This document shows, in pieces, positions 28,763 through 35,232 of a DNA stretch of 36,239 bases. The translations under genes were made by a program, and so were the position numbers. Within the stretch, counting starts at the first letter, position 1, and each line of letters opens with the position of its first letter. Source of the DNA: Methanobrevibacter sp. (lineage in GTDB: Archaea > Methanobacteriota > Methanobacteria > Methanobacteriales > Methanobacteriaceae); the NCBI RefSeq assembly GCF_030539555.1, contig NZ_JAUNXX010000014.1:1-36239 (forward strand). The letters run 5' to 3'. The notes under the pieces were generated by a model. That model did not search any database, had not been told where the DNA came from, and saw nothing but the letters and a program-made list of their open reading frames with translations.

Positions 28763-31642
28763 ATGGAGTCTAAAAAACAGATTGTCATAAAGGGTGCACG
28801 TGAGCATAATCTTCAGGATATTGATGTCAGTGTGCCCCGTGATGAATTTATTGTAATTACTGGTCTAAGCGGGTCCGGAAAGTCTTCACTGGCATTTGAT
28901 ACAATCTATGCTGAAGGACAGCGTAGATATGTTGAGTCATTATCTGCTTATGCAAGACAATTTTTGGGGCAGATGAAAAAGCCCGAAATGGAATCAATAG
29001 AAGGGTTGTCTCCGGCCATTTCAATCGACCAGAAAACCACAAGGGAAAACCCAAGATCCACTGTAGGTACAATTACTGAAATTTATGATTATTTAAGATT
29101 GTTGTATGCAAGAATAGGCATTCCTCACTGTCCTAATTGTGGAAAGGAAATATCCCAACAGACAATAGGTCAAATTGGAGATTCCATCATCGAAGAGGGT
29201 GAAGGAATCAAAATCCAAATATTGGCACCTATTGTTCGTGACAAGAAAGGTCAATTTAAGGATGTCCTTGAGGATTTGAGAAACAAGGGTTTTGTTCGTG
29301 TCCGTGTTGACGGTGAGATAAGGGACTTGGATGAGGACATTAGCTTGGCCAAGACATATAGGCACAACATTGATGTTGTGGTTGACAGGCTTAAAATCAG
29401 GCGTGACGTTGACTTTAAAAGAAGGCTTGTGGATTCACTGGAAACTGCAGCAGAATTCACCGATGGTCTAATCACAGTACTGTTCGATGACGGCGAAGAA
29501 TATGAGAAAAAATATTCAGAGCACTTTGCCTGCGTTGACTGTGGAATAAACTTTGAGGAGCTGACTCCAAGGATGTTTTCATTCAATGCTCCTCAGGGGG
29601 CATGCCCTGAATGTAATGGTATAGGTTCCAAAATGGAAATCGACCCTGATTTGGTGGTTCCAGATAAATCACTGACATTAAATGAGGGAGCAATTGTGCC
29701 TTGGGCAAGTTCAGCAAAAAGGGAAAATTACTACTTCCAGATGCTTGATGCTGTATCAAAGCATTTCAATTTTTCAATGGATACTCCATTTGAAGAGCTA
29801 CCTAAGGAATACCAGGATACTATTCTTTTCGGATGCAACGAAAAAATCCCATTCAAATTCAAAAGAAGAAACAAATCATACATGGTCAATCGTAAGTTTG
29901 AGGGTGTGGTTCCAAGAATGCAAAGATTATATTTTGAAACCAAATCAAGCTATTCAAGAAAATATCTCTCAAAATTCATGAGTGACAGAAAATGTTATGT
30001 CTGCAACGGCAAACGTTTAAGGCCAGAGGTTTTAGCGGTTACTGTCGGAGGAAAATCAATCATTGACGTGTGTGACTTGTCAATCAAGGATTCATACAGA
30101 TTCTTCCAGGAACTGGAACTTACAGAAAGAGAAAACTTCATCGCAAAAGAAGTCCTAAAAGAGATTAAGGAGCGTTTAAGCTTTTTGGTTGAAGTGGGAC
30201 TTGATTATCTATCAATGTCAAGATCATCCGGTACATTGTCCGGTGGGGAAGCACAGAGAATCAGATTGGCCACTCAAATTGGTTCAGGTTTAGTGGGTGT
30301 TTTATACATTTTGGATGAACCGAGTATCGGACTCCACCAAAGGGACAACATAAAACTCATTGAAGCATTAAAAAGACTTAAAGATTTGGGAAATACTCTG
30401 GTTGTCGTTGAACACGATGAAGAGACAATCCTGTCAGCAGACCATGTAGTGGATATCGGTCCCGGTGCCGGTGAGCACGGAGGTAAGATTGTAGCTCAGG
30501 GAACACCTTTGGACATAATGAACAATCCGGATTCCATTACAGGCCAGTACATTTCAAGAGTCAAAAAGATAGACATCCCAAAAGAGCGCCGTGAAGGCAA
30601 CGGACAGTTCATTACAATTAGGGGTGCAGCTCAAAATAACCTGAAAAATATCGATGTTGACATCCCGCTTGGCAAATTCACATGCGTAACCGGTGTCAGC
30701 GGTTCCGGTAAAAGCAGTTTAATTAATGAAATATTATACAAGGGCGCTAAAGGAAAGTTAACCAAAAAATTCATGTTTGCAGGTAAATATGACAAAATCG
30801 AAGGACTTAATAACATTGACAAGGTCATTGCAATTGACCAAAAGCCAATTGGAAGAACTCCAAGATCAAATCCTGCAACATACACAGGAGTATTTACGGA
30901 TATCCGTGATCTGTTTGCAAACACTCCTGAGTCCAAAGCAAGAGGATACAAGCCTGGAAGATTTTCATTCAACGTTAAGGGCGGAAGATGTGAGGCCTGC
31001 TCAGGTGACGGTATTGTCCAAATCGAAATGCACTTCCTGGCAGATGTTTATGTTCCATGCGAAGTCTGCGGAGGCAAAAGATACAATGAAGAGACTTTAG
31101 ACATAAGATATAAGGGCAAGAACATCTATGAGGTCCTTGAAATGACTGTTGAAGAGGCATTGGAATTCTTTGAAAACATTCCAAAAATCACCAAAAAGCT
31201 TCAGACATTATATGATGTCGGATTGGGCTATATGAAAATAGGCCAGCCTGCAACAACCCTTTCCGGTGGTGAAGCTCAAAGAATCAAGCTTGCAAAAGAG
31301 CTTTCAAGAACAAGCACTGGTAAAACATTATATATCTTGGATGAACCGACTACAGGTCTTCATTTTGCAGATATCAAAAGGCTTTTGGATGTTTTGGCCA
31401 GATTGACAGATGCAGGAAATTCTGTCGTTGTCATTGAGCATAACCTGGATGTTATAAAAACTGCTGACCATATTATTGACCTGGGTCCTGACGGCGGTGA
31501 CGGCGGCGGTGAAGTGATAGCTACCGGAACACCTGAAGAGATTGCAGAAGCCGGAACATATACCGGACAATTCCTGGAGAAAATGCTTGATGAAAACATC
31601 ACTCCTTATGCAAAGGAATTGGTTCAAGATATAGGAAAATGA
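28763..31642 (+). CDS. uvrA: Excinuclease ABC subunit A
   Basis: UvrA is the damage-sensing ATPase that loads UvrB. The 959-residue protein has both ABC cassettes: Walker [10 protein letters not shown] near the N-terminus and GVSGSGKSS in the second half, signatures LSGGEAQRI twice, and Walker [11 protein letters not shown] and [10 protein letters not shown]. Zinc-binding Cys pairs are present (CPNCGK, CVDCG with CPEC, CEAC with CEVC). All expected parts are complete. ATG 28763 follows an AAGGAG site. It shares strand with uvrB but a terminator-like element lies between them. No LexA/SOS-type box is recognisable. Confidence 0.98.
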
Positions 31643-31800
31643 ATTTTTCTTATATCACTTTACTATTTTTTTAATTTTCAATTTACATTTTTATTCTACT
31701 TTTTTTAAATATATTGAACATCTATTATTTAAAATTCTTTTTTAGGTGATTGTTTAACTAAATTTAAATACTTTATTGAATAATTTATAATCATAGGGAG

Positions 31801-31837
31801 CTAGTAAAGTATAAATACTATATAAAATACTTACTAG
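31801..31837 (+). promoter_or_regulatory. TATA box embedded in an imperfect inverted repeat (DUF2193-aquaporin operon)
   Basis: CTAGTAAAGTAT (31801-31812) is complementary to ATACTTACTAG (31827-31837) apart from one unpaired base. The loop between the arms holds the TATA box (ACTATATAA, 31817-31825), predicting transcription from about 31848. The start codon at 31863 is preceded by GGTGAT (31854-31859). A dimeric regulator on both arms would enclose the TATA box. The regulator is unknown. Confidence 0.55.
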
Positions 31838-31862
31838 TGTACTTATCATTAAAGGTGATAAT

Positions 31863-33362
31863 ATGAGAGAGTTATATGAAAAAATGATTAACGAGTCAAT
31901 GGCTGCTCAAAAGGCAGACGTTACAGTTATCTCTGAAAACAGGTACAATGACTTTAAAATCACTGACGCAAAGCCATATGCTGATGCTGTGGCAGGCATG
32001 ACTGCACTTGACAGTCAGGCAGAATCCGTAATTAACTTACACAAGGAATCTGTCAAAAACCACTTTGAGATTTTATCTTCCATTACAGACACCTTGAAAT
32101 GTGAAGATGATCCTTTCATTGAACATTTCCAAACTCCTCCGGTTTTAGAAATTTTATGTGAAGAAGATGGTGAATTTGCAGACAGTTTAGATAAATTTAT
32201 CCAAGCTATTGCAGATAATGAAGCCCTTGTTGCTAAAGAATCCATCAGAAGATACGGTGGTTTTTACGGACCGACATGTGTTGTGGACTTTGCATTGATG
32301 CCTGGAAGTACCAGTAATGTTGTAAACCAAATACTTCAAAAAACAGACATTCCAGTTGCTCACAAACAGGCAATCCTATCCGCTAAATCATGGGGTATGA
32401 ACACTTCATATGGTATAGGTGATGCATTTGCAAACGCTATTGAAGCAGGTGCAACAGCAGCTGAAGCAACCGAAAAGGAAATTGCAGCATTGCAGATGAT
32501 TTATAAAACTCCAATCGAAGGACAGGGCCAACTGATGGATGATGCAGACCACACATCATTTGATGTAAGGGACTACATGAACAAATACAAAAAAGCAATG
32601 ACATCAACCGTTAAAGCAGCAATGGATGATGGAGTGCACTACGGAAACATCGTAACAGTTCCAGCATACTGTGTCGGAGATATCGGACACCACATCGGTC
32701 AGTCCACATACAACATGTGTAAGGATGATGTGACTTTAGCTATCGTTCAGGCAACTGCTGAAGTAATAGGTTCCACATTAACATCCAATCTGGACAATTA
32801 CAAATCAGAGTTTGACGTATTGAAATTGGCTACAGGTTCATCCGCATGCGCAACTGAATTCATATTGGAGCTTGACGGATTCAATGCACCTATGGTAGTG
32901 GATTTATTCTCAAAAAGATTCCACAACTTCGTACAGCAATATCCAACAAGAGGAGCTGCTGCTGAGCTTCACAACTGTGACTTCATGGACATGATTTACA
33001 GAGGATTTAACGCAATCAGCGGAGCCCGCAAATTCAGGGCAGGCACTGGTGGAGAACTGGCTCCTAAAATCAATGGTATGACAGTTGATTTAAGCCCAAT
33101 TTTAGCTAACGAAACAGTAATGAACCCACAAAGGTACACTTATCCTGCATGTGCAATTACAGTAAGGTTCTCATCACTCATGAGACTTGCGGACTACCCA
33201 TGTCTTTTAACTTCAGAACCAATTACAGCAACAATGATGACAAACATTATTGCACTTAACAAGGAAGCTCCGGGATCACCTGTAAGAGGATGTAAAAACT
33301 GTGCTGCAGCATCACTGGTTGACAACAAACACGAATACTGTCAATGGAGAGAATCTGTATAG
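31863..33362 (+). CDS. DUF2193-type protein, unknown function
   Basis: The 499-residue soluble protein matches my recollection of the DUF2193 family, found mostly in methanogens and some anaerobic bacteria and without known activity. The N-terminal 120 residues are helical. The middle has KEIAALQMIYKTPIEGQGQL and a His-rich VPAYCVGDIGHHIGQSTYN. The C-terminal third has GSSACATEFILELDGFNAPM, AELHNCDFMDMIYRG and RFSSLMRLADYPC. It ends with Cys477, Cys480 and Cys493 (GCKNC...YCQW). The many conserved-looking Cys and His suggest a metal or cluster site; this is inference. An aquaporin gene follows after 9 bases with its own GGGGGAAAG site, so the two are one operon. The family name should be confirmed by profile search. 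Confidence 0.75.
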   Translation: MRELYEKMINESMAAQKADVTVISENRYNDFKITDAKPYADAVAGMTALDSQAESVINLHKESVKNHFEILSSITDTLKCEDDPFIEHFQTPPVLEILCEEDGEFADSLDKFIQAIADNEALVAKESIRRYGGFYGPTCVVDFALMPGSTSNVVNQILQKTDIPVAHKQAILSAKSWGMNTSYGIGDAFANAIEAGATAAEATEKEIAALQMIYKTPIEGQGQLMDDADHTSFDVRDYMNKYKKAMTSTVKAAMDDGVHYGNIVTVPAYCVGDIGHHIGQSTYNMCKDDVTLAIVQATAEVIGSTLTSNLDNYKSEFDVLKLATGSSACATEFILELDGFNAPMVVDLFSKRFHNFVQQYPTRGAAAELHNCDFMDMIYRGFNAISGARKFRAGTGGELAPKINGMTVDLSPILANETVMNPQRYTYPACAITVRFSSLMRLADYPCLLTSEPITATMMTNIIALNKEAPGSPVRGCKNCAAASLVDNKHEYCQWRESV

Positions 33363-33371
33363 GGGGAAAGT

Positions 33372-34139
33372 ATGACTTGCAATATTAGAAAAAAATTCTT
33401 TGCAGAGCTTCTGGGAACATTTTTCCTGGTATTTTTCGGTACAGGTGCAGCTGTTGTAACATTATTGATTACCGAAGCATCTGGAGCTACCGGAATCGGA
33501 CCTTTAGGTGGATTAGGTGACTGGATTGCTATAGCTTTGGCATTTGGTCTGACTGTAATGATATGTATTTATGTATTCGGTAAGATATCTGGCGCACACT
33601 TGAATCCTGCTGTAACAATCGGTCTGCTTGTGACCAAAAACATTGATTTAATCGACAGTGTTTGCTATATAATTGCACAGGTAATCGGTGCATGTTTGGG
33701 AAGTTTATGCTTATTCCTATGCCTTGGTGCTCCGGCAGTTGCAATCGGTGGTCTAGGTGCTACCGCTCCGGGACTTGGTGTGACATACTGGCAGGCAATG
33801 TTTGCAGAGTTTTTAGGAACATTCTTCCTCATGATGGTTGTAATGGGTGTTGCAGTTGACAAAAAGGCAGAACCGGGTTTTGCCGGAATATCAATAGGTA
33901 TGACCGTTGCAGCAGTAATTGTAGTATTAGGTGCATTTACAGGCGCTTCAATCAACCCTGCACGTACATTCGGTCCGTACCTGATGGACATGATTTTAGG
34001 CGGTCAAAACCTTTGGGCATTCTTCCCTATTTATCTGGTTGGACCTATTCTTGGAGCAGTATGTGCTGCATTTGCATATGCATATCTTGCAAAAGACAGT
34101 GGAGTCTGTGAACTTCCACAACCTTTCAACGACGAATAA
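33372..34139 (+). CDS. aqpM: AqpM-type aquaporin / aquaglyceroporin
   Basis: The 255-residue channel has six membrane helices and the two NPA half-helices: GAHLNPAVTIG (NPA 78-80) and GASINPARTFG (NPA 195-197, selectivity-filter Arg198). The overall sequence (GGLGDWIAIALAFG, GGLGATAPGLGVTYWQAMFAE) closely resembles Methanothermobacter AqpM, which passes water and, more slowly, glycerol and has been linked to H2S and CO2. By recalled alignment the filter would be Phe58, Ile183, Ala192, Arg198, with Ala replacing a Ser of the known AqpM. It is co-transcribed with the DUF2193-type gene. A strong hairpin overlaps its stop codon. Confidence 0.93.
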   Translation: MTCNIRKKFFAELLGTFFLVFFGTGAAVVTLLITEASGATGIGPLGGLGDWIAIALAFGLTVMICIYVFGKISGAHLNPAVTIGLLVTKNIDLIDSVCYIIAQVIGACLGSLCLFLCLGAPAVAIGGLGATAPGLGVTYWQAMFAEFLGTFFLMMVVMGVAVDKKAEPGFAGISIGMTVAAVIVVLGAFTGASINPARTFGPYLMDMILGGQNLWAFFPIYLVGPILGAVCAAFAYAYLAKDSGVCELPQPFNDE

Positions 34140-34172
34140 TTCTTTTTGAATTATTCTTCTTTTCTTTTTTTT
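34134..34172 (+). terminator. Terminator of the DUF2193-aquaporin operon
   Basis: GAATAATTC (34134-34142, containing the stop codon TAA) pairs perfectly with GAATTATTC (34148-34156) around a TTTTT loop. A T-rich run to 34172 follows. Confidence 0.7.
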
Positions 34173-34332: not shown

Positions 34333-35232
34333 ATGTTGGCAGAAGAGATTAAACCTATTTCAAACGCTATGGACAAATCATTCAGATACACAGGCGACCA
34401 ATGGGCAAGCGATTTTCACTTAAATTTGGAACTGCCAGGAATTTTCAAGGAATTGCTTCAAAATGATGTGGTAATCGATCCAAAGACTGGAATTAGAATG
34501 GATTTGCTTGAATTGGTTGAACTTGAATGTGGAATTGAGATATTAATAAATATTGAACACCAATCTACAAAATTGGATACAATTAAAATCAAAATAATTG
34601 ACGGATACAAAAACTATTCTAAATGCAAACACAAACTTCCATTATTGTCAGTCATCGTTAGTCCATTTCCAAAAGAGGAGCACGAAACAGAATATCGCTC
34701 TACAGAATCTGATGTCCTTCAGCCGGTGTTTGTCACAATCGACGATGAAGAAATTCAAAAAAGATTAAATATTCTAAAGGACAATTATAAAAATAACGAA
34801 ATTGAAAATTATATTGTTTTAAATATTGCTATAATTGCCATTTTTGTCCTCAATAATAAATATGATGTTCTAAAAGAATTGTGTATAATTCTTACTCAGT
34901 CAAATGGAATTAAAGGTGAAATAAGAAGGGATATGACAAAAGTTCTTGAAGAAATGATTAAGTACAAATTAAATGATAATGCAGAACAGGTAATGGAGTT
35001 GTTAGGGATGTTAGAAAAAGATAGGGAAACTGCAAAAAGGGGAATGCGAATTTGGTATGAAGAAGAGTTTGCACAACTGGAAGCGCAACATAAAAAAGAA
35101 CTCAGTATTCAGGAGGCACAATATAAAAAAGAATTGGCTGAGAAGGATGAGTTTCATGCTATTGAGTTGGCTGAGAAGGATGAGAAGATTGATGAGTTGA
35201 ATACATTACTTAAAACAAATGGCATGAACTAA
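34333..35232 (+). CDS. Rpn/YhgA-like PD-(D/E)XK nuclease family protein with coiled-coil tail
   Basis: The 299-residue protein has a PD-(D/E)XK-type core: Asp57 in GIRMDLLELVE and the Glu75-x-Gln77 motif in LINIEHQST, as in Rpn (recombination-promoting nuclease) and YhgA-like proteins. Residues about 60-190 are alpha/beta. The C-terminus from about 240 is a charged coiled coil built from 11-residue units (QHKKELSIQEA, QYKKELAEKDE, FHAIELAEKDE). Rpn proteins cut DNA and some protect against phage; function here is inferred only from the motif. ATG 34333 follows AAGGATG, and a TATA box (TTTATATACTG, 34264-34274) lies upstream. It is a single gene, flanked by unrelated functions. Confidence 0.75.
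   Translation: MLAEEIKPISNAMDKSFRYTGDQWASDFHLNLELPGIFKELLQNDVVIDPKTGIRMDLLELVELECGIEILINIEHQSTKLDTIKIKIIDGYKNYSKCKHKLPLLSVIVSPFPKEEHETEYRSTESDVLQPVFVTIDDEEIQKRLNILKDNYKNNEIENYIVLNIAIIAIFVLNNKYDVLKELCIILTQSNGIKGEIRRDMTKVLEEMIKYKLNDNAEQVMELLGMLEKDRETAKRGMRIWYEEEFAQLEAQHKKELSIQEAQYKKELAEKDEFHAIELAEKDEKIDELNTLLKTNGMN
35086..35184 (+). repeat. Three 33-base tandem units in the nuclease coiled coil
   Basis: Units start at 35086, 35119 and 35152. TTGGCTGAGAAGGATGAG is identical at 35134-35151 and 35167-35184, and CAAxATAAAAAAGAA occurs at 35086 and 35119. Each unit encodes 11 residues, so copy changes keep frame and lengthen the coiled coil by whole hendecads. Confidence 0.75.

Follow-up and report, generated by a model that had tools for sequence, protein, structure and literature searches.

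A conserved archaeal gene module of DUF2193 and an AqpM-type channel and its two-gene form in Methanobrevibacter

The analysed stretch of DNA (36,239 nucleotides, called the window throughout) carries a gene for a DUF2193 protein followed, on the same strand, by a gene for an AqpM-type MIP channel. The same arrangement recurs in two archaeal phyla, with the channel gene lying 3' of canonical DUF2193 on the same strand in 76/76 loci of Methanobacteriota and in 107/109 loci of a second phylum, and a conserved DUF2193-AqpM module is well supported by this gene order. Judged from gene content, the locus in the window is a reduced two-gene form of the archaeal module DUF2193-DUF2180-AqpM, since no match to PF09947 (DUF2180) was found in the window's genome. 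The searched literature (one open-licence library) yielded no description of the DUF2193-AqpM pairing.

The locus and the conservation of the gene pair

The genome that contains the window, as contig C30, measures 2.08 Mb, and the nearest named loci are those of Methanobrevibacter. The features of the locus are as follows.

31763..31770, + strand: TATA-like element TTTAAATA, a likely promoter element (aligned upstream regions of related loci)
31801..31837, + strand: inverted repeat, read as a leader-RNA hairpin (folding compared with that of shuffled sequences and of 108 control leaders)
31863..33362, + strand: DUF2193 protein of the canonical class, a probable metalloenzyme, 499 residues (PF09959, conserved residues, model)
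33291..33341, + strand: codons of the C-terminal cluster C477, C480, H490 and C493, a probable metal site (conservation in three groups)
33372..34139, + strand: AqpM-type MIP channel, 255 residues, filter F58, I183, A192, R198 (PF00230, TIGR00861, alignment)
34140..34172, + strand: T-rich tract after both genes, a possible terminator (sequence)

The open reading frame at 31863-33362 matches PF09959 with 874 bits (cut-off 25) over positions 2-498 of the 498 in the profile, which bears out the full-length DUF2193 gene of the first-pass annotation. The frame at 33372-34139 scores 184 bits with PF00230 (against 25) and 196.5 with TIGR00861 (against 171), and its earlier assignment as an AqpM-type channel agrees with both profiles and with the nearest solved structures, the AqpMs 3ne2 and 2evu/2f2b (265-266 bits), which we take to be those of Archaeoglobus fulgidus and Methanothermobacter marburgensis, respectively. 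The genes are separated by 9 bases (33363-33371), as had been described. A single terminator had also been placed after both genes; a T-rich tract is present 3' of the channel gene (27 T per 40 bases from 34137), but the hairpin-terminator scan has no entry at it. The Rfam search gave no match anywhere in the window. On the strand of the operon, a UvrA gene (28763-31642) directly precedes it; a 299-residue open reading frame (34333-35232; best Pfam E value 0.39, no NCBIfam match) lies 3' of it.

Nearly all PF09959 loci of Methanobacteriota and of the second phylum (that of a Methanoculleus locus, from which 392 genomes were drawn) were retrieved, and their neighbours were scored with profiles. 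The family is present in 82/151 genomes of Methanobacteriota, with 69/151 lacking it, and in 123/392 genomes of the second phylum. The pairing was counted for canonical DUF2193 genes of full length that have 1 kb or more of DNA on their 3' side, the MIP gene being sought within 1 kb on the same strand. The 85 loci of Methanobacteriota comprise 76 linked loci, 4 at a contig edge and 5 with DUF2193 fragments only; the 111 canonical loci of the second phylum comprise 107 linked ones, 2 at contig edges and 2 unlinked (L241 and L170, the latter presumably Methanosarcina acetivorans). These counts exclude three loci of type II (the divergent class described below) that lie at contig ends, as well as six widened duplicates (L296-L301), and the canonical copy of genome G496, in which DUF2193, DUF2180 and MIP lie in a row, was not among the fetched loci. 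For the 80 named loci (Methanobrevibacter, Methanoculleus, Methanothrix, Methanocalculus, Methanofollis, Methanoregula and others), which overlap the other genomes and were not added to the linkage counts, the MIP gene is linked in 77/80 and a contig edge intervenes in 3/80. A missing association at DUF2193 genes elsewhere had been named beforehand as the main observation that could overturn the pairing, and across this survey the link held.

No other neighbour family stood out as fixed among 87 canonical loci, the commonest after MIP being found at 15/87 and at scattered positions, in a survey that relied on crude gene calls and detected MIP itself in only 65/87. At the level of whole genomes of the second phylum, MIP occurs in 109/112 with full-length canonical DUF2193 and in 44/280 without it, a count that takes related genomes as independent. 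In the M. acetivorans control, DUF2193 and DUF2180 are matched and MIP is not, and two M. acetivorans-like genomes, G537 and G341, likewise carry DUF2193 without MIP. Many genomes of the window's genus that have no DUF2193 list a single MIP of ~231 residues, and in a further genus (g12, 20 genomes), which we infer to be the methanol-reducing Methanosphaera, DUF2193 is found in 0, MIP in 19 and DUF2180 in 8. DUF2193 is widespread among methane producers and is found in many Methanobrevibacter of the rumen. Broken or truncated copies, several of them still followed by MIP, were seen at L286, L292 and L295 and in G396, G509, G512 and G494. A second MIP of the window's genome, in a 231-residue open frame at G000:C42:9147-9812, is unlinked to DUF2193.

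Promoter, leader and inverted repeat

The arms of the inverted repeat are CTAGTAAAGTA (31801-31811) and TACTTACTAG (31828-31837); an ungapped repeat search of the window reports other arm pairs and not this one. The first-pass annotation had placed the TATA box in the loop of the repeat. The repeat itself is real, but when the related loci are aligned, the conserved element TTTAAATA lies ~30 bases 5' of it and the AT-rich loop is not conserved. Among these loci the sequence of the repeat drifts and the stem persists. For the window together with 24 close relatives, folding of the leader from -75 to -12 gives a median z of -2.4, with 17/25 at z ≤-2, as compared with a median of 0.1 and 3/108 at z ≤-2 for control leaders from the same loci. 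The repeat is thus more than chance, and it behaves like a leader-RNA element, a candidate hairpin. The idea of an operator for a dimeric regulator found no support. With the conserved TATA-like element 5' of the repeat and a stem that varies in sequence, a regulator-bound promoter operator was rejected as the main reading, and an operator may lie within the leader.

DUF2180 and the DUF2193 protein

In lineages whose DUF2193 and AqpM genes are ~200-300 bases apart, the gap is filled, at many of the inspected loci, by a Cys-rich open reading frame of ~69 residues, which is DUF2180 (PF09947, 125-133 bits against 22.2). Of the linked loci, 88/107 in the second phylum and 12/76 in Methanobacteriota have it between the two genes; in Methanobacteriota, PF09947 matches occur in 21/151 genomes, all outside the window's genus. 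The two-gene system proposed from the window therefore holds for its genus and some others, whereas most other lineages have DUF2180 in between; Methanothermobacter-like genomes, order-level relatives of the window's genus, have the full three-gene module. This distribution suggests that three genes are the ancestral state. The invariant residues of DUF2180 include eight Cys/His arranged as four pairs, which would form a two-zinc cross-brace. Its predicted model has a pLDDT of 92.6, and the fold search gave no PDB match at E ≤0.001, the weak hits being mostly ribosomal proteins. The family is not named in the searched literature (one open-licence library), in which a single paper names DUF2193. 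Tandem DUF2180 pairs are found away from DUF2193 in some genomes of the second phylum (e.g. G537:C1:4611673-4612115), so that DUF2180 has a second context.

The canonical DUF2193 relatives that were kept are 63-99% identical to the protein of the window. Three groups were aligned, the canonical (n=28), the Methanosarcina-type (n=8) and the divergent one (n=16 representatives). All three share conserved residues, among them H67, E87, R129, D142, E206, H276, H277, R352, R363, H370, D373, D376, D444, C447, C477, C480 and C493, and position 490 is H or C. This pattern is as expected for a putative enzyme with a metal site, and since these His, Asp, Glu, Arg and Cys positions are shared, the canonical and divergent classes probably perform related chemistry. 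The predicted model of DUF2193 is all-helical (pLDDT 81.9, pTM 0.85). As regards the Cys/His metal site suggested earlier, C477, C480 and C493 are conserved, but the Cys tail is poorly predicted; judged by conservation, the C-terminal Cys/His cluster could plausibly bind a metal.

No convincing relative of DUF2193 was found in the PDB by sequence, and the Foldseek search gave no PDB match at E ≤0.001. Membrane pyrophosphatase, the best candidate by fold (Z 5.4, 205 residues aligned, rmsd 5.2), was rejected as noise of a helical model. A strong membrane stretch was not found in the protein, and DxHxxG, the corrinoid motif, is present in 0/287 DUF2193 sequences.

The divergent class, the channel and the proposed function

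A divergent DUF2193 (type II) is found at 19 loci (L142-L160), with MIP nearby in 0/16 of those with enough DNA. In the tree, a deep clade with full support unites 15/16 divergent representatives, and L143, which is included in the type II counts, falls elsewhere on a long branch. An MtrH-family gene lies 5' of the divergent DUF2193 on the same strand in 16/19 loci, overlapping it or within 20 bases of it in most of these; relatives of AOR (5), Mer (4), MtrA (3) and MtaA (1) are also found near it in the 19 loci. For comparison, the 87 canonical loci have no MtrH neighbour and one AOR. Over their cut-offs are the MtrH equivalog at L155, the MtrH-family subfamily model at L146, L151 and L153, Mer at L155 and MtaA/CmuA at L153, and the MtrA of L152 falls just below the TIGR01111 cut-off and above that of the subfamily model. 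The sole MtrH match adjoins the divergent DUF2193 in 5/18 genomes (G197, G286, G188, G308 and G241; loci L150, L151, L154, L144 and L146, respectively). One of these, G197, we take to be Geoglobus ahangari, and it additionally has the full DUF2193-DUF2180-AqpM module (L137). For Geoglobus ahangari, the retrieved part of PMC4600277 describes a lone MtrH gene, the one of 8 Mtr subunits present, with no coenzyme M reductase and the rest of the methane pathway lacking.

These neighbourhoods suggest a function, which we put forward tentatively: DUF2193 would be a soluble, all-helical metalloenzyme in C1 or methyl metabolism, and AqpM would be the channel for its substrate or product, a small neutral molecule. 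The divergent class would act with MtrH-family methyltransferases, which transfer methyl groups between tetrahydromethanopterin and corrinoids. What the canonical class uses up or releases would be a small, neutral C1 compound, with AqpM as its route across the membrane, and DUF2180, where present, would be a zinc-binding helper. The C1 chemistry is supported by the MtrH-family gene at 16/19 divergent loci and by its being the sole MtrH in five genomes; for the canonical class it is carried over from the deep sister clade, since 0/87 canonical loci have an MtrH neighbour. In favour of a link between channel and putative enzyme, AqpM follows canonical DUF2193 in 76/76 and 107/109 loci, with no other family standing out as a neighbour. 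Against the C1 reading count the separability of the genes (G537 and G341 without MIP, and MIP in 44/280 genomes without canonical DUF2193) and the fact that no fold relative of DUF2193 backs an enzyme class. CODH/ACS was rejected as a required partner: CdhA is over the cut-off in 25/151 genomes of Methanobacteriota and in 0 of the window's genus, where DUF2193 is common. DUF2193 is tied neither to CODH/ACS nor to all methanogens.

Among known systems, glpF-glpK is a channel-plus-enzyme operon. The pair of the window resembles it in having a MIP gene with a putative enzyme for the solute and an inferred co-transcription, and differs in that the putative enzyme belongs to another, uncharacterised family; to our knowledge, the zinc-ribbon-like DUF2180 has no counterpart in operons of this type. 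MtoA and MtgA are MtrH-dependent methyl-transfer systems in which substrate methyltransferases adjoin an MtrH-family gene, as divergent DUF2193 does in 16/19 loci. Unlike these, DUF2193 is predicted to be all-helical and lacks DxHxxG (0/287), and its canonical class has no MtrH neighbour. Corrinoid substrate methyltransferases of the MtaB/MttB type have a TIM-barrel fold, which the predicted all-helical model of DUF2193 does not share.

The channel has the marks of the AqpM subtype, namely the MIP profile, two NPA motifs and a filter of Phe, Ile or Val, Ser or Ala, and Arg. It does not reach the AqpZ equivalog NF003838 (133 bits against 256). It is of the same type as the AqpMs of Methanothermobacter marburgensis and Archaeoglobus fulgidus, with two NPA motifs, and its filter differs from theirs at one position, Ala for Ser. 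Across 258 aligned MIP sequences from the loci, a set in which named and other loci overlap, F and R are invariant and I is found in 250 (reference positions from the retrieved parts of PMC3287591 and PMC6912568). The same passages describe the AqpM filter as narrow and hydrophobic, with weak passage of water and little of glycerol, and the natural solute as still debated. The narrow, largely invariant filter counts for the C1 reading. Published AqpM work treats the channel alone, with DUF2193 and DUF2180 unmentioned in the passages retrieved; in the parts retrieved, the module was not found in PMC9012536, PMC1852104 or PMC10846266, and PMC3087415 yielded only an unrelated passage for AqpM/MTH103.

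Two expression results bear on the solute. In a Methanocalculus strain at 25 MPa, a condition that the authors read as CO2 limitation, AqpM rises from 2.17 to 9.19 normalised RPKM, about fourfold, the known carbonic anhydrase being unchanged (PMC12727201, in part). In Methanococcus voltae, DUF2193 (Mvol_0354) is more abundant on FeS2 (PMC9431491, in part). These hints point in different directions and neither decides the solute.

The pressure response would fit the acquisition of CO2, with AqpM passing CO2 in or out and DUF2193 as a new CO2-handling enzyme, for instance a helical carbonic anhydrase. CO2 is listed among the possible AqpM solutes (PMC3287591, in part), and DUF2193 is absent from all 20 genomes of the inferred Methanosphaera. 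We nevertheless regard this explanation as unlikely: pressure confounds the expression result, the retrieved table of PMC12727201 does not contain DUF2193, some CO2-reducing relatives apparently lack the gene, no carbonic anhydrase match was obtained in Pfam or PDB sequences, and the MtrH link of the sister class favours methyl over CO2 chemistry. The same response, in which AqpM rises along with many other genes, could also reflect shared stress regulation, the channel serving water or turgor balance and DUF2193 being co-expressed with no common molecule. The weak water passage reported for AqpM (PMC6912568, in part) and the few genomes in which the genes are separate agree with this, but an identical gene order across two phyla, with the other neighbours shuffled, is hardly expected from it and a highly conserved, enzyme-like protein is left with no role, so it too appears improbable.

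The FeS2 result suggests instead an iron or sulfur module, with DUF2193 carrying an Fe-S cluster or dealing with sulfide and AqpM letting in H2S; the C-terminal Cys motif of Mvol_0354 resembles that of an ApbE-like protein proposed to act in sulfide assimilation (PMC9431491, in part). This is the least probable of the three, as AqpM is said not to transport H2S (PMC3287591, in part), neither the aquaporin nor the DUF was found in the retrieved part of the paper on the pyrite proteome of M. barkeri (PMC10846266), and the divergent class has C1 genes as its neighbours. The earlier proposal of a channel and an enzyme serving one small neutral molecule stays our best guess, with H2S disfavoured among its candidates.

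Taken to its full extent, the C1 reading would make DUF2193 a new all-helical class of C1 enzymes, whose divergent members partner the orphan MtrH of Archaeoglobi and whose canonical members, with DUF2180, feed a C1 exchange through AqpM; in this complete form we consider it rather doubtful. If true, AqpM would be a C1 channel and not a water channel. The question of its solute can now be tested via the substrate of DUF2193, its near-constant conserved companion, and the sister class is a candidate partner for the lone MtrH of Geoglobus ahangari. At four of the divergent loci (L152, L153, L155 and L160), MtrH, Mer and a tungsten-type AOR are clustered with DUF2193, together with MtrA at three and MtaA relatives at one, and these clusters look like an undescribed C1 pathway.
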